64,000 bases of DNA from Pseudomonadota bacterium (GTDB lineage: Bacteria > Desulfobacterota > Syntrophia > Syntrophales > UBA8958): contig JASGUC010000027.1 of assembly GCA_030057915.1 (NCBI GenBank), positions 1-64,000 of the forward strand. Reading direction: 5' to 3'. Positions 9,805 to 32,938 of this stretch are shown piece by piece. Position numbers and translations under genes: made by a program. The notes under the pieces are model-generated. The model worked only from the letters and a program-made list of their open reading frames with translations, made no database searches and was not told the origin of the DNA. The stretch's first letter is position 1, and each line of letters begins with the position of its first letter.

Positions 9805-11187
9805 ATGTCCGAGGGTGACACCATCACGGCCGTGGCCACGCCACCGGGAGTGGGAGGCATTGCCGTTATTCGTCTCAGCGGACCCGCCGCGGAAAGGATC
9901 GGCAGGACGATCTTCCGCTCCGCCCAAGGCCATCCCCCGCCATTCGCCACCCACCGCCTGTACCACGGCCATATCGTGTCGACCGTGGACGGCGCCGTCA
10001 TCGACGAGGTCCTGGTCGTTCTCATGCGGGCCCCCCACTCCTACACCGGCGAGGATGTGCTGGAGATTCACGGCCACGGCGGCTATCTCCTGCCACGGCG
10101 GATCCTGGCGGAAACCATTCGCGCCGGCGCCCGTCCGGCGGCGCCGGGAGAATTCACGAAACGGGCCTTCCTGAATGATCGCCTGGACCTCTCCCAGGCC
10201 GAGGCGGTGGCCGACATGATCGACGCCCGAACCGAACGGGGGCTCGATCTGGCCCAATCTCAATACCGGCGTCAACTGGCAGGAGAGATAACGGCCCTGC
10301 GCGACGGGATCGTCGATGCCATCGCCCGCCTCGAGGCCGACATCGAATTCGCCGCGGACGACCCCGACGCCCCCGACGCCATGTCGATTCCCAACCGGCT
10401 ACAGGAGATAGGCCGCGAGGTCAACTCCCTCATTGCTTCCTACCGGGAAGGCAGACTCTACCGTCAGGGGGTCAGCCTGGTCATCGCCGGCCGAACCAAT
10501 GTGGGCAAATCGAGCCTTCTCAACCGTCTTTTGGGAGAAAAGAGGGCCATCGTCGCCGCCACCCCGGGCACGACCAGGGATTTCATCGAGGAGACGGTGA
10601 ATATCCACGACATCCCCGTGCGCCTCACAGACACCGCGGGCATCCGCGGCGCCACCGACGCCGTAGAGCAGGAGGGGATCGCCATGGTCTGGCAGCGTAT
10701 CGACGCCGCCGACGCCGTCCTATTAGTCCTCGACGGCTCGGAGAGCCTGACGGCGGCGGACCGGCAAATCGTCGCGGAACTGTCCGGCAAGACCCTGATC
10801 CCCTTGGTCAACAAGGCTGATCTTCCCAGGATACTGACGCCGGAGGCCCTGTCCGATCTCCTCCCGAACCATCGGGCGTTATGGATTTCAGCGAAAAACG
10901 GAACGGGGATCGACGAGTTGCTCCAGGCCGTTCGCCGCCTTTTCCTCTCCGCCGAGGGGGACGCCTCCACCGGCATGAGGATAACCTCCCTGCGCCACAA
11001 ACTGGCCCTGGAAAAGGCGTCCTTTTTCCTCTGTCAGGCCACGGCGCGGGCGGCCGGGGGAGGATCGCCCGAATTGGCCGCCGCGGACCTCCAGGAAGCC
11101 CTGGAAGCCCTGGAAGAGATCACCGGTGAGACCGCCGACGAGATGATCCTGGAGAGGATATTCGCCAACTTCTGCGTCGGCAAATAA
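9805..11187 (+). CDS. mnmE: tRNA uridine-5-carboxymethylaminomethyl modification GTPase
   Basis: GTPase that works with MnmG to modify wobble U34 in certain tRNAs. The 460-residue product begins MSEGDTITAVATPPGVGGIA, the formyl-tetrahydrofolate-binding N-terminal domain (PGEFTKRAFLNDRLDLSQAEA). The G domain is inserted in the helical domain: GRTNVGKSSLLNRL near residue 228, the TTRD switch, DTAGIR and NKAD. It ends FANFCVGK, with the catalytic Cys motif CxGK required for modification. The ATG at 9805 is chosen because the upstream in-frame extension is out-of-family and overlaps khpB. Confidence 0.97.
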   Translation: MSEGDTITAVATPPGVGGIAVIRLSGPAAERIGRTIFRSAQGHPPPFATHRLYHGHIVSTVDGAVIDEVLVVLMRAPHSYTGEDVLEIHGHGGYLLPRRILAETIRAGARPAAPGEFTKRAFLNDRLDLSQAEAVADMIDARTERGLDLAQSQYRRQLAGEITALRDGIVDAIARLEADIEFAADDPDAPDAMSIPNRLQEIGREVNSLIASYREGRLYRQGVSLVIAGRTNVGKSSLLNRLLGEKRAIVAATPGTTRDFIEETVNIHDIPVRLTDTAGIRGATDAVEQEGIAMVWQRIDAADAVLLVLDGSESLTAADRQIVAELSGKTLIPLVNKADLPRILTPEALSDLLPNHRALWISAKNGTGIDELLQAVRRLFLSAEGDASTGMRITSLRHKLALEKASFFLCQATARAAGGGSPELAAADLQEALEALEEITGETADEMILERIFANFCVGK

Positions 11188-11378
11188 GGCTTAGATCCCA
11201 GGGTAAATTTCTTCTCAATGTAAGTAGTTGATCTTGAATGATCTACTAAAACTGAGGCACGTCCTGTTTTCAGCCACTTAGAGATAGAAACAAATTTACC
11301 GTGGCTTATATCCCCTTTACAAAACTTGCCCGCTTCAGTATATTCGACCCGAAAAATTCCCTCCGGAGGTCCGTTATC
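11188..11378. other. AT-rich leader between mnmE and the FlgT-like gene
   Basis: This 190-base gap is distinctly AT-richer than its surroundings. GGTAAATTTC near 11206 is matched by an inverted partner near 11288 (AAACAAATTTACCG), so the segment could fold into a long stem. A smaller interrupted palindrome around 11224-11247 (AGTAG..GATC/GATC.TACT) lies inside. It probably holds the promoter or an mnmE 3' structure, but no clear promoter boxes were found. Confidence 0.35.
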
Positions 11379-12524
11379 ATGCCAAGATCAGCGGCGGTTA
11401 TCTGCTCTATCTGCGTTGCCTTCCTCTTCCTGTCCGCCCCTTGCGCCGGGGCTCAGCTCCGATGCATCGACGCCGAGGGAGAGGCGGCGATCTTGAACAA
11501 CGACCTTCCCTCCGCAAGGATGGAGGCCGTGGCGCGGGCAAAGTGGCATGCCATCGAGCAGACGCTCGGCGTCGATGTGAAGGCCGGAAGCTATGTGTCT
11601 AATTTTGCCCTTGTGGAAGACGTCATGAAGACCCAGGTGGGCGGATCGGTCAAAAGATTCAAGATTCTGAGCCAGACTGAAAAGGACGGCGTTCTCGCCA
11701 TGCGGATCAATGCCTGCGTGGAACCGAAAAAGGCTCAGGAGGCCATCGCCTCCGAACTGGCCCTAAACAGCGGCATTGCCGTGTTCATCCCCGCCCGGAA
11801 GCCCCAAGGGTCCGCGGGAGGGGATGCCTATGAAGAGACCAATATCCTCTCCGAAACGCTCATCGGCAAGCTTACGGAACAGCGCTACCGGGTCATCGAC
11901 GCGGCCCCCACCCATGCCCCGACGGCGGCGGCGCTGGAAAGGGCCATGCGGAGCGGCTCTACCTTGGCGGTCCGGAGCATGCTCTACAAATATCTGTCCA
12001 ACATTGCCGTTATCGGCAGCACCGACTATGCCGTATCGACGAAAAAGGGAGAGGACATCGGCTACGGCCTTTCCATGCCCTTCAACAATGTCACGGTCCG
12101 ACTCACGTATCGGGTGGTTGCCCGGAACAACAAAACCGGCAACATGGAAATCCTCAGCGCCGGCACGGAGCAGGGAAAGGGCATCCGCAACAGCGTCGAG
12201 GACGCCGCGGCGGCGGCCCTCAAGGATGTGGCGGACAAGGTCATCCCGAAAATCCTCGACAAGACCGCCCAATACCTCCAGGGGAACGAGAAGCGCATCC
12301 GGGTGACGATCGCCGGCGTCAAGGATATGGAGACCAACATCGACATCAAGGGCATCCTCCAGAACATCGTCTGGGTGTCCGAGGTGGAGGAGCTGGAGCT
12401 GGGCGAGTTCATCGTCGTCTATCCGGAAAACCCCGTTTATCTGGCAAACAGCATAAAACAGAAGGGCAACTTCACCGTTGACAACTTCACCGCCTATTCG
12501 CTGAGACTCAGCTATAAACCCTGA
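11379..12524 (+). CDS. Exported hypothetical protein with a FlgT-N/LPP20-like region
   Basis: Function unknown. The ATG at 11379 follows GGAGG and gives 381 residues with a clear signal peptide (MPRSAAVICSICVAFLFLSA, cut after CAGA). The mature N-terminus (AEGEAAILNNDLPSARMEAVARAKWHAIEQTLGV, then NFALVEDVMKTQ and GSVKRFKIL) has the layout of FlgT N-terminal/LPP20-type domains. In these, a repeated ARxEAxxxA helix is followed by a short beta segment. The middle resembles a periplasmic stress-protein-like fold, and the C-terminal third (KRIRVTIAGVKDMETNIDI) may be a second small domain. No flagellar gene is nearby, so a motility role is not supported by context. Likely periplasmic or outer-membrane associated. 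Confidence 0.7.
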   Translation: MPRSAAVICSICVAFLFLSAPCAGAQLRCIDAEGEAAILNNDLPSARMEAVARAKWHAIEQTLGVDVKAGSYVSNFALVEDVMKTQVGGSVKRFKILSQTEKDGVLAMRINACVEPKKAQEAIASELALNSGIAVFIPARKPQGSAGGDAYEETNILSETLIGKLTEQRYRVIDAAPTHAPTAAALERAMRSGSTLAVRSMLYKYLSNIAVIGSTDYAVSTKKGEDIGYGLSMPFNNVTVRLTYRVVARNNKTGNMEILSAGTEQGKGIRNSVEDAAAAALKDVADKVIPKILDKTAQYLQGNEKRIRVTIAGVKDMETNIDIKGILQNIVWVSEVEELELGEFIVVYPENPVYLANSIKQKGNFTVDNFTAYSLRLSYKP

Positions 12525-13000
12525 TGGGCCATCCATAGGCGGACCTTCCGCCCTTCCACCGGGCGGCCCCCGGGAAGGACGAAAGCGGCAGCGGCTCCTT
12601 CGACCTCCCCCGCGTCGTCATCGCCTCCTCCCTGAAGACCCGGGAGGCGGGGCGTCGCGACGGCCCCCAAGGGGCCTCCGCATTGTCGCCACGGTCGCCA
12701 CGGAAGAAAAGAGACCCCGGGGAGGCGCTCGCCACATCCGGAGACCTTCGATAACCCCGCCTTCCCGGCATCCGAACGGGACGAAAAACATGGTCCGAGA
12801 CCTTTGAAAATCCGCGCCTTCCTGTCGTCCCGTCAATGGCCGGTCGCGAGAACACCTTGAAAACAAGTTATTCCAGACTTGGCCGGCATGACGACAGGTG
12901 GCCCGAGGCGGCGTTTCTCAAAGGTCTCGGTCTGGGAATAGTTCCGGCCCGTCAGCGCTGGTTTTGCAAAGGTCTCGCCCGGACGGCGCCGGGTGAGGCT
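12525..13000. other. Intergenic stretch with repeat-family-A sequences
   Basis: No gene was recognised. The left half is GC-rich and featureless. The right half holds a complete family A element (12797-12928, listed separately) and an isolated A-type end, TTTTGCAAAGGTCTC, at 12962-12976. The convergent genes on either side end here, so the stretch may also act as a transcription-termination zone, though no U-tract hairpin was found. Confidence 0.6.
12797..12928. repeat. Family A inverted-repeat element, copy 1
   Basis: The 132-bp unit begins GAGACCTTTGAAAATCCGCG and ends GCGTTTCTCAAAGGTCTC, so the ends are imperfect inverted repeats of about 18 bases. A second inverted pair lies inside (CCTGTCGTC near the left, GACGACAGG near the right). 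Size and terminal structure match the other family A units at 33557, 38456 and 38741. No open frame of interest is present. Confidence 0.75.
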
Positions 13001-28940: not shown

Positions 28941-29735
28941 TTACCCCCGCGAGCCGAGACGCAGTCCGCCGTGAATGAAAAATACGTCGCCGGCCAGGGC
29001 CTCGTTGCGGTACAGCTCGCCTACCAGGGAGGCCACCTCCTCCGGGTCGATGAGACGGCCGATGGGGACATCCGCCAGGATCTTCTCCAGGGCCCTCTGG
29101 TCCATCCGCCGCACCATGGCCGTGCCCACGTAACCGGGGGCCACGGCGACGCAGCGGATTTGTCCGGACAGGCCACGCCGGAGGAACTCGGCGGTAATGA
29201 CCTTGGGAAAAACGGACATGGCCGCCTTGGAGGAAGAGTAATTGATCTGGCCGGCCGTCCCCAGGGAACCCGTGGAGGACACCAGGCAGATCAACCCCTT
29301 GCAGTTGTGGTTTATCATCCGTTCCGCGCACTCCCTGACGGTGAGGAAAACACCGGTCAGATTGATGTCGATGACCGCCCGGAACTGCTCGAGGCTCATC
29401 TTCCGGTTCACCCTGCCCGTTTCCTTGCTGGTGGACACCATGAGTCCGTCCTTGATGATCCCCGCGAAGGGCGCCACCAGATTGATCCGGCCGAAAAGCT
29501 CAATGGCCACATCCGCCAGTCGGGCGTTGTCCTCTTCCTTCGTCACGTCGCAGACGACCGTCGCCACTTCCCCGCCCAATTCCTTCAACTGGGCCTCCGC
29601 CTGGTCCAGCAGCGGCTGGGCTATATCGGCAATCACCACCCGGCCGCCGTGGCGCACCCAGTATTTCGCTATCTCCAGCCCTATTCCCCCTCCACCGCCG
29701 GTAATGACGGCCACCGATCCTTCGATCTCCAGCAT
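28941..29735 (-). CDS. Short-chain dehydrogenase/reductase, FabG-like
   Basis: NAD(P)-dependent oxidoreductase of the classical SDR family, 264 residues. The cofactor loop is TGGGGGIG near the N-terminus, DV follows at CDVTKEED, the expected NAG is AG in APFAGIIKD, and the catalytic set is the Ser in LVSSTGS with Y-x-x-x-K in INYSSSKAA. An Asp at the end of the second strand (VIADIA) suggests NAD preference. AAAGGAG precedes the ATG. It is downstream of two CoA-transferase genes on the same strand, with a terminator-like hairpin between, so a shared pathway acting on acyl-CoA substrates (for example hydroxyacyl-CoA oxidation) is possible but unproved. Confidence 0.9.
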   Translation of the reverse strand: MLEIEGSVAVITGGGGGIGLEIAKYWVRHGGRVVIADIAQPLLDQAEAQLKELGGEVATVVCDVTKEEDNARLADVAIELFGRINLVAPFAGIIKDGLMVSTSKETGRVNRKMSLEQFRAVIDINLTGVFLTVRECAERMINHNCKGLICLVSSTGSLGTAGQINYSSSKAAMSVFPKVITAEFLRRGLSGQIRCVAVAPGYVGTAMVRRMDQRALEKILADVPIGRLIDPEEVASLVGELYRNEALAGDVFFIHGGLRLGSRG

Positions 29736-30254: not shown

Positions 30255-31604
30255 TCAGATAACGCCCCGCTCCCCCAGCTCTCTGAGCCTTTCCGGTCCA
30301 TAGCCCAGATATTTCAGATATATGTAACCATTGTCGTAACCGACGGGGCGGCAGACCCACTTCGTCCGCGGCGGCGTTTCCGTGGACTTCCATTGGGCCT
30401 GGGCGCAGATGATCGAGCCATAGACGGGGTCCTGCACAGGGGCAAAGACGCCGCGATCCCGCCAGACCTCGTCGTGCATGGCATTCCAGGGTGGCACGAT
30501 CTCCGCCACGACGGGGGTGATGGGCGCCAGGCGCCCCAGCTTGGCATATTCGATGGACTTCGCCGTCAATTCCTGACTCGTGTATTGCCGCGTCTCCGGA
30601 TTGATCATGGCCTGATACTTCAATTGCCAGTCCTTCTTCATGAACGGCGCCAGGGTCGTCCACTGCTCGGCGCCCCAGTCGTCGTATTTGCCGATAATAT
30701 CCACGAAGGCCTTCCACATCTCCAGACGCAGCCCCCCGAGAAATACGCCGCCGTCCTTGGTTGGATAGAAGCCGTAGAGCCAGAGGCAGGTGTCGAGGTT
30801 GCCGAAGCGTTCGTTGACCACCCCCTGGTCGGCATACCAGTGGAGCATATAGTCGTTGAGGCGCTCATAGGCCTCGGGGGTGCTGATGTCGATGGCCTGT
30901 CCTTCGCCGGACATCTCCCGCCAATACGCCGCGGCCAGGATCCCCAGGGCGCCGAAGGTCCCGGACACCGCCCAGGCGATCCACGGCCCGGCCTTGGTGG
31001 AGACGGCATAGGGAACCTCCGCGACGGTCTTGCCCTCGGGAAGGACCTCGCCGGTGGCGTACTGGACGCCCGAGCGGGCCTGGGCCACATTGTCGTAATC
31101 AAACTGGTTCCGGCCGCTTTCCGGGCCGAACTGCCCGTAGCCGGTTATGGAGGCATAGATCAGGCGAGGGTTCAGTTTCGCCAGTTCCTCGTAGCCAAGG
31201 CCCCAGTTATCCATCCTCCCGGCCGGAAAGGTCTCGACGAGAACATCCGCCTGGGCGACGAGGGAGCGGAGCATGTCCCGCCCGGCCTCCGTTTCCAGAT
31301 TCAGGGTGACATGGTATTTGTTACGCCCTTCCTGAAGATAGGCCATTCCCGTCCCGCGGTGCATGACGCCATTGGGGGAATAGCTCCTGACCAGATCACC
31401 CCCCGGCGGTTCGATGCGGATCGTCTCCGCCCCAAGCTCCGCCAGCAGGGAGGTGCAATAAGGCCCCGCCATGCTCCGGGAACTCAGGTCAATGACGGTC
31501 AAATGGTCCAGCGCTTCGGGTTTTTCGAAGTTTTTCGCCGGATCGTCAAGGGCGCGGATATGATCGGCCCAGTCGGCCCATTTCGGTCTTTTATGCTCGG
31601 TCAT
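30255..31604 (-). CDS. Family III CoA-transferase (CaiB/BaiF/FRC), probable non-catalytic-type subunit
   Basis: CoA-transferase-like protein of 449 residues; the start at 31604 follows AGGAGG located inside the end of the preceding gene. The CaiB/BaiF fold is shown by LTVIDLSSRSMAGPYCTSLLAELGAETIRIEPPGGD, by the segment ADVLVETFPAG and by GLGYEELAKLNPRLIYASITGYGQFGP. Where active family members have the catalytic Asp (SIADLAAG-like position), this chain reads VSTKAG, with Ser at the alignable site. It lies five bases after its paralogue and probably forms a heteromeric enzyme with it, as in BbsEF benzylsuccinate CoA-transferase. Donor and acceptor acids are unknown. Confidence 0.88.
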   Translation of the reverse strand: MTEHKRPKWADWADHIRALDDPAKNFEKPEALDHLTVIDLSSRSMAGPYCTSLLAELGAETIRIEPPGGDLVRSYSPNGVMHRGTGMAYLQEGRNKYHVTLNLETEAGRDMLRSLVAQADVLVETFPAGRMDNWGLGYEELAKLNPRLIYASITGYGQFGPESGRNQFDYDNVAQARSGVQYATGEVLPEGKTVAEVPYAVSTKAGPWIAWAVSGTFGALGILAAAYWREMSGEGQAIDISTPEAYERLNDYMLHWYADQGVVNERFGNLDTCLWLYGFYPTKDGGVFLGGLRLEMWKAFVDIIGKYDDWGAEQWTTLAPFMKKDWQLKYQAMINPETRQYTSQELTAKSIEYAKLGRLAPITPVVAEIVPPWNAMHDEVWRDRGVFAPVQDPVYGSIICAQAQWKSTETPPRTKWVCRPVGYDNGYIYLKYLGYGPERLRELGERGVI

Positions 31605-31609
31605 CTCCC

Positions 31610-32938
31610 TCACCTCCTGATGATGACGCCGGCCTGTCCGTCCCAATCGGACGGGGGGCGGCGTCCCTGCATGTCTTTCCATTTTCCAAGAACGCCATGC
31701 AGATACAGTTCGTCGATCTGCGCCTGATTCCTCCCCAGGATCTTCGTCATGACGAATTCGTTGTCGAATCCTACCGGTCGCACCGTCCACTTGATCTTGG
31801 GAGGAGTCTTGGACATCATGACGGGAAATTCGTGCTCCACATAACATCCGTAGAGAGGATCGTCGATCTCCTTTACGAATCCCCGCTGGCGGCGGTGGGG
31901 ATCTTCGTTCATGTCCACGGCATTGTGGAGGCGGGTGGCGGCAAAGCCAAACTCCCGGCCCCGGGCCTCGATTTCGTCGGCGGTATGGGCGCGGGCCCAG
32001 GCGGCGACGATCTTCAAGATCTCCAGGGCGTTCTCCTCCTGAAGCCGGACGCTATGTTCCCGGAAACGGGGGTCGTCGGCCAGCTCCGGCCTCCCCATGG
32101 CCTTGCACAGGCCCATGAACTCGTCCGGGGCCGGGGCGGCCAGGGCGGCCAGACGGCCGTCGGCGCACAGGAAGGTGTCGGCGGGGCAGATGCACTGATC
32201 GCGGTTTCCCGCCGCCTCCACGCCCTTGCCGGTCAACTGCTGGTACGGCCAGACCCAACTCATGGCCCGCATGATGTTCTCCGTCTGGGACATCTCGATG
32301 AACTGCCCCCGGCCGGTCTTCCGGCGGTGGTGAAGGGCGGCCAGGACCGCCACCTCACCCATCAGCCCTCCGTAATAATCGCAGATCCAGATGGACTGCT
32401 TCAGGGGCGGACGATTGGGGAAACTGGACATCCAGGCGTATCCGGAGAGGGCTTGAGACGCCCCGTCGTTGGAGGGTCGGTCTTGCTCGGCGTAAAGACC
32501 CCATTGGCCGAAACCGTTCTTCTCGATGTAAATGATGCCGGGGTTAGCCTCCTTGATCTGTTCGTAGCCGATATTCCAGCGCCTGGTGACCCCGGGACGG
32601 AGATTGAATTCGATGATATCCGCCTTGGCCGCCAGCTCCTTGAATATCTGTTGTCCCAGGTCGATATGGAGGTCCAGGGCCATATAATACTTATTGGGGT
32701 TGATGTGCATGAACATGGGCGACTGTTCCTTGTAGAACCAGCCGAAGGGATTGAGAGAGCGGGTTACGTCTCCGGCGGGGGGAAGCTCGATCTTGATGAC
32801 CTCGGCGCCCATCTCCGCCAGAAAGGACGGGCCGGAAGGCCCGAAGAGGAGTGTACAGACCTCGAGGACCCGGACGCCGTGCAGCGGAGCGGGCCGGGAG
32901 AACTTTTTCTTTACATAATCTTTGAAAACATCAGGCAT
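31610..32938 (-). CDS. Family III CoA-transferase (CaiB/BaiF/FRC), probable catalytic subunit
   Basis: Transfers CoA between an acyl-CoA and a free acid through an aspartyl-CoA thioester. The 442-residue chain shows GVRVLEVCTLLFGPSGPSFLAEMGAEVIKIELPPAGD, then ADIIEFNLRPG and NIGYEQIKEANPGIIYIEKNGFGQWG. The catalytic-Asp position is filled (IWICDYYGG), in contrast to the following paralogue. The C-terminal parts of the two chains (IKWTVRPVGFDNEF / TKWVCRPVGYDNGY) are clearly related, so the pair arose by duplication. The first gene of the set, it has a region with repeats upstream. The substrate could be a succinate-, malate- or carnitine-type acid. Confidence 0.9.
   Translation of the reverse strand: MPDVFKDYVKKKFSRPAPLHGVRVLEVCTLLFGPSGPSFLAEMGAEVIKIELPPAGDVTRSLNPFGWFYKEQSPMFMHINPNKYYMALDLHIDLGQQIFKELAAKADIIEFNLRPGVTRRWNIGYEQIKEANPGIIYIEKNGFGQWGLYAEQDRPSNDGASQALSGYAWMSSFPNRPPLKQSIWICDYYGGLMGEVAVLAALHHRRKTGRGQFIEMSQTENIMRAMSWVWPYQQLTGKGVEAAGNRDQCICPADTFLCADGRLAALAAPAPDEFMGLCKAMGRPELADDPRFREHSVRLQEENALEILKIVAAWARAHTADEIEARGREFGFAATRLHNAVDMNEDPHRRQRGFVKEIDDPLYGCYVEHEFPVMMSKTPPKIKWTVRPVGFDNEFVMTKILGRNQAQIDELYLHGVLGKWKDMQGRRPPSDWDGQAGVIIRR

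Follow-up and report, generated by a model that had tools for sequence, protein, structure and literature searches.

A family III CoA-transferase gene pair with the catalytic Asp on one chain only, probably a heteromer with a single live site

Two neighbouring genes in the window (the whole stretch of 64,000 nucleotides that was analysed) encode family III CoA-transferase chains, here named A and B; A carries the catalytic Asp of the family, and in B a Trp occupies that position. We infer that the two chains probably make up one heteromeric enzyme with a single live site, in which Asp187 of A would face a loop supplied by B. The features on which this reading rests are as follows.

31610..32938, minus strand: gene A, putative catalytic chain of a family III CoA-transferase, 442 aa (P0001), with Asn112, Asp187 and Gln218; identified by its PF02515 match, by Asp187 in the catalytic column and as the neighbour of B.
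32378..32380, minus strand: codon of Asp187 of A, read from the sequence.
31610..31618, minus strand: AGGAGGTGA, ribosome-binding site of B, which shares bases with the stop codon of A and stands five bases ahead of the ATG; read from the sequence.
30255..31604, minus strand: gene B, Asp-less partner chain, family III CoA-transferase, 449 aa (P0002), with Trp211, Thr125 and Thr242; identified by its PF02515 match and by Trp211 at the Asp column.
30972..30974, minus strand: codon of Trp211 of B, read from the sequence.
30789..30803, minus strand: loop residues 268-272 of B (GNLDT), occupying the position held in YfdE by the GNxH loop, which faces the Asp of the partner chain; placed by alignment, with its role taken from the YfdE structure as described in the available part of PMC3720670.
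30111..30125, minus strand: weak hairpin resembling a terminator, located between gene B and the SDR gene, from a consensus scan that found 8 in the region against 4.3 expected in shuffles.
28941..29735, minus strand: SDR oxidoreductase (FabG-like), 264 aa (P0003), 519 bases downstream of B; adh_short match of 135 bits.

Gene A ends at its 3' side with AGGAGGTGA, whose TGA is the stop codon of A and is followed by five bases and then the ATG of B, exactly the spacing given in the earlier note, which had also placed a ribosome site for B inside the first gene. The motif GGAGGTGA was present in 21 of 21 related loci and overlapped the stop codon of A in 20 of them (L017 being the exception), in agreement with that placement. 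The start of B at 31604 is the one kept in relatives; a mechanical open reading frame of 530 aa (31847-30255) begins within gene A.

The PF02515 CoA_transf_3 profile matched nearly the whole length of both chains, with 342 bits for A and 271 bits for B against a cut-off of 23.3, so that the family III assignment proposed from the sequence alone was upheld. None of the NCBIfam equivalogs for mesaconate, glutarate, oxalate and carnitine CoA-transferases scored above its curated cut-off (best 182 bits versus 700), and plasmid searches returned no homologue above 60% identity, the best among the matches listed being about 34% for A and about 33% for B. Comparison with solved family III enzymes by phmmer placed Asp187 of A (IWIC-D-YYGG) on their catalytic Asp column, where it aligns with Asp169 of E. 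coli Frc, and placed Trp211 of B (TKAGPWIA-W-AVSG) in the same column; a MAFFT alignment with Frc, YfdE and CaiB agreed on both residues. The translation of B holds no Asp over residues 172-238, the nearest being Asp171 and Asp239, and therefore no reasonable realignment supplies B with an Asp of its own. The earlier note had thus read correctly both the catalytic Asp within IWICDYYGG and its restriction to one chain, and no alignment giving B an Asp was found; its choice of VSTKAG as the equivalent position in B was off, Trp211 lying a few residues downstream.

As a rule, family III CoA-transferases are homodimers whose two sites are equivalent, and E. coli Frc, which has the same fold family and Asp column as A, is a homodimer with two identical sites. 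E. coli YfdE, alike in fold family and Asp column, is likewise described as such a homodimer in the available part of PMC3720670, whereas A and B would form a heteromer. Enzymes of this family are interlocked dimers in which the active site is at the interface of one chain's large domain with its partner's small domain (available part of PMC9196870); the available part of PMC3720670 reports that Asp173 and loop His233 of each YfdE site come from different chains and that in UctC, a homologue, an Asp-to-Ala change removed activity. By analogy with the YfdE geometry described there, Asp187 of A would face loop 268-272 of B, and Trp211 of B would face the GNRDQ loop of A. The YfdE loop reads GN-R-H, whereas A and most of the B rows shown read GN-x-D, with Asp where YfdE has His.

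In the proposed mechanism, Asp187 of A would take the acyl group from a donor acyl-CoA and pass the CoA to an incoming acid, the chemistry proceeding on A via aspartyl anhydride and thioester intermediates, and the product would feed acyl-CoA degradation. B has Trp211 for the catalytic Asp and has also lost the Asn and Gln of A, so the site on the large domain of B should be dead. It would still complete the live site, because each site in the interlocked fold pairs the Asp of one chain with the loop of the other; the conserved loop of B (268-272 and the residues that follow) would face Asp187 of A and help set which acid is accepted. This loop is strongly conserved and clade-specific, reading GNLDT in the window and GNYD with PYTY in several other clades, and its conservation and clade differences would fit a role in the live site. 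Single-chain AlphaFold models built from alignments of 20 close relatives were poor (mean pLDDT 51.5 for B and 55.6 for A). Three observations count against a heteromer: A by itself retains all that a homodimer requires, both chains of one tandem pair (L135) carry Asp, and one genome (G440, locus L085) has B without A at the cut-off.

The earlier note had coupled the pair to the downstream SDR gene, which does exist (29735-28941) but lies 519 bases away and is not a conserved neighbour: tblastn found close homologues at 5 of 23 related loci, where they lie 27 to 317 bases beyond B, and since three of the 23 end too soon, this amounts to 5 of the 20 relatives whose downstream sequence is long enough. 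Those with the homologue were all among the closer kin of the window. The SDR was therefore dropped as a functional partner and kept as a clade-level association only. At a distant pair (L082), an SDR of the same cluster sits behind a thiolase-cluster gene, and a 4HBT thioesterase follows the SDR in relatives.

Across the relatives, the neighbours included acyl-CoA dehydrogenases, hydratases, thiolases and acid transporters, cluster labels here and below resting on one searched representative per cluster. An AMP-dependent acyl-CoA ligase directly follows B at L007, L014, L015, L018, L094 and L102, the last of which also has an iron alcohol dehydrogenase and a member of the HpaB family, to which 4-hydroxybutyryl-CoA dehydratase belongs. 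A glutaconate CoA-transferase-like pair and an acyl-CoA dehydrogenase stand beside A-B at L005, L007, L017, L020 and L105; the two chains of that pair have about 350 and 300 aa and keep the active-site Glu region. Acid transporters differed by clade, with a TRAP transporter near the pair in 3 of 3 loci (L074-L076), a sodium:solute symporter in 3 of 4 (L077-L080) and ABC transporter genes of the branched-chain kind in 7 of 7 (L123-L129; Pfam was run on the substrate-binding and ATPase clusters only). L083 and L084 carry an FAD oxidase, an Fe-S protein, a GntR regulator and LrgB. At L138, an acyl-CoA dehydrogenase, three hydratases, a carboxyltransferase, an HMG-CoA-lyase-like protein, A, B and a short-chain fatty acid transporter form a set that looks like branched-chain acid degradation, together with a distant glutaconate CoA-transferase-like pair, and at L140 clusters of 3-hydroxyacyl-CoA dehydrogenase, acyl-CoA dehydrogenase and thiolase precede A and B. 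Several pairs have none of these neighbours, for example most of L086-L090.

The common thread of these neighbourhoods is acid uptake and CoA-activation for beta-oxidation-like use. An acid-activation step in a degradation pathway, as suggested in the earlier note, thus fits the surroundings of the relatives in a beta-oxidation-like setting, even though the SDR link from which it had been argued is weak (5 of 20). Within the heteromer reading, we tentatively considered that the acid could be a short branched or hydroxy acid arising in the fermentation of amino acids or fatty acids, with paralogous pairs serving different acids. The neighbourhoods of L138, L140, L083/L084, L074-L076 and L123-L129 point that way, but neighbourhoods differ strongly by clade, no single acid fits all of them and the window itself offers only the distant SDR, which leaves this refinement doubtful.

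We then considered how closely the two genes are associated. At an E-value cut-off of 1e-100, B was found in 33 of 155 Syntrophales genomes and A in the identical 33, with neither alone at that cut-off, and A and B adjoin with A first in all 33 at the places listed. Two of these A genes are damaged or fragmented, that of G150 by an internal stop and that of G020 by lying over two reading frames. The latter (L002, 8701-9994 of G020:C25) is whole in the related G021; its split could reflect either an error of assembly or genuine decay. Across 395 sampled genomes of the phylum, at a cut-off of 1e-55, B was found in 40 and A in 56, a surplus that means little because ordinary family III enzymes are also picked up by the A profile; of the 40 genomes with B, 37 were within the A set. 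Among the three B genomes without A at this cut-off, G394 and G414 show only weak B matches. The genes upstream of the B chain at L085 (G440:C13) are like those preceding the pair in L077-L080. One genome (G486, L091) has the reversed order, B then A, and three or four B matches per genome were found in G312, G336, G459 and G493. Distances among A chains and among B chains, compared over 46 pairs, correlated with r = 0.97, a value that partly reflects the common descent of the hosts, and the rate of change in B is no higher than in A (mean distance 0.54 versus 0.53).

These patterns bear on the explanation that the chains work independently, A as a homodimeric CoA-transferase of the ordinary kind and B as a separate or regulatory protein whose gene simply accompanies that of A. 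Such an arrangement is unlikely in our judgement: all catalytic residues are indeed kept in A and one genome has B without A, but the identical presence in 33 of 155 genomes, the fixed order and spacing, the conservation of B to the same degree as A and the highly conserved partner-facing loop in B all speak against it, and a B homodimer would have no Asp at its site at all.

The Asp/Asp-less split is itself a lasting trait of the pair. In a thinned and widened alignment of 46 A and 47 B chains, from whose counts and column scan the exceptional Asp/Asp tandem pair L135 was kept out, the catalytic column held Asp in 46 of 46 A rows and in none of the 47 B rows, where it held Trp in 44, Gly in 2 (L123 and L128) and Ala in 1 (L134). 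The first set, in which several genomes appear twice because their loci were drawn from two collections, gave Asp in 54 of 56 A rows and Trp in 58 of 59 B rows; the rows with no letter at this column were two pieces of one broken A gene (L002) and a B fragment without that part (L023). The near invariance of the Trp (44 of 47), which was not simply lost, along with further B-specific conserved positions in the column scan, including Tyr277, Pro372 and Trp381, would suit an enzyme in which B performs Asp-independent chemistry with Trp211 in a new active site. We regard this as very improbable, however, given that the Asn and Gln columns are altered too, that Gly replaces the Trp in two B rows and Ala in one, and that no partner-free B lineage was seen except L085.

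A plan of this kind, an Asp chain alongside one that lacks the Asp, is already known from BbsEF, the toluene-pathway enzyme, which likewise consists of two family III chains from neighbouring genes. For comparison, BbsF was identified by sequence match as chain B of the solved benzylsuccinate CoA-transferase 9fn0 and BbsE was taken as the gene next to it, so that the bbs naming rests on that match and on pairing. Scanning the whole alignment for residues found in 95% or more of A rows but in no more than 10% of B rows yielded eight positions: P34, N112, D187, Q218, F332, A334 and two C-terminal prolines in a region absent from B. At N112, D187, Q218 and A334 all 5 BbsF rows had the residue of A and all 4 BbsE rows had another (Ser, Tyr, Cys/Ile and Leu/Ile, respectively); the P34 and F332 columns showed no split of that kind. 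This four-column pattern makes A like BbsF and B like BbsE in function-related residues, not by descent. The Asp column of the Asp-less chain holds Tyr in BbsE, whereas it holds Trp in B, and bbsE comes first in the bbs homologues, whereas the Asp chain comes first here.

Phylogeny separated the two systems. In a tree of 79 rows, A chains formed one clade (support 100/99) and B chains another (100/100), the two being sisters (99/93) apart from BbsE and BbsF. A tree of 83 rows that took in distant pairs and left out near-duplicates, CaiB and one own-genome chain agreed with it (A 100/95, B 100/99, A+B+L135 100/100), and the A and B trees showed matching subclades. Forcing B, BbsE and the Gly chain of a tandem pair (L115) together cost 55.8 log-likelihood units (AU p = 0.00016). 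The trees contain long branches, which according to a warning from the program may be joined falsely. Since A pairs with B and no clade unites B with BbsE, the likeness to BbsEF is one of convergence, and on sequence grounds the Asp-less chain appears to have arisen independently of BbsE. The phylogenetic check proposed in the earlier note thus did not group A with BbsF or B with BbsE; what stands of its BbsEF-like heteromer is the Asp/Asp-less pairing and the four-column match, which make such a heteromer probable, and what falls is orthology, A and B being each other's closest kin. A search for PF02901 glycyl-radical enzymes found 0 matches in the pair's own genome, which is listed as 100% complete (the control was positive in 3 of 14 genomes), and this argues against a benzylsuccinate role. 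That the pair is a BbsEF orthologue activating a succinate adduct (benzylsuccinate or alkylsuccinate) has therefore only the slightest chance of being right: the same kind of split and the same four separating columns would suit it, but the A+B group stands apart from BbsE and BbsF, joining B with BbsE is rejected (p 0.00016), the gene order is the reverse and the own genome has no PF02901 enzyme, and orthology was rejected on these grounds.

L135 (G374:C1, 8952-11674), the tandem pair with Asp in both chains, falls at the base of the A+B clade; the best tree puts, with weak support, one chain on the B side and one on the A side (72/47 and 79/89), a split that, if real, could possibly suit an ancestor with two Asp chains. 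Outside the A+B clade, one Asp-less chain also occurs in the tandem pair L115 (a Gly chain and an Asp chain) and in a second tandem pair at L109 (an Asp chain and a Ser chain). The latter lies at 10494-12997, downstream of A-B and of genes of 3-hydroxyacyl-CoA dehydrogenase and thiolase clusters. The Asp-less chains of L115 and L109 retain the Asn, so loss of all the sites is not universal among Asp-less chains. The own genome further contains a single family III gene with Gly at the Asp column and no family III neighbour (G000:C12:36965-38059; L025, L143).

Two-chain family III CoA-transferases are also known in SmtAB, which acts on malate, and SptAB/PhtSab, which act on phthalate. Phthalate activation after the manner of SptAB was considered and is weakly disfavoured, no UbiD-type decarboxylase having been found among the neighbour proteins put through Pfam. 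A literature search, with most subscription papers outside its scope, returned no paper on the pair, on a chain with Trp for Asp or behind 9fn0, nor a description of the separate origin, the Trp signature or the spread of this lineage.

Extending the heteromer reading, we put at about even the chance that the pairs represent a half-site CoA-transferase lineage within one phylum. One duplication followed by replacement of Asp with Trp in the second chain would have produced a dedicated partner that plugs one site and gives a specificity loop to the other, and several paired paralogues would then have arisen, each by a different acid transporter or degradation module, making this a second, independent invention of the BbsEF plan.

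If this is true, heteromers with one site have evolved on at least two occasions, each time with loss of the same residues from the silent chain, and residue swaps would offer a direct test of what that chain is for. An automatic annotation that calls such B chains active CoA-transferases would then mislead, and the Asn, Asp and Gln columns would serve as simple markers of silent chains. The pairs belong to syntrophic and other anaerobic degraders of acids, in which acid-activation steps are often unassigned.
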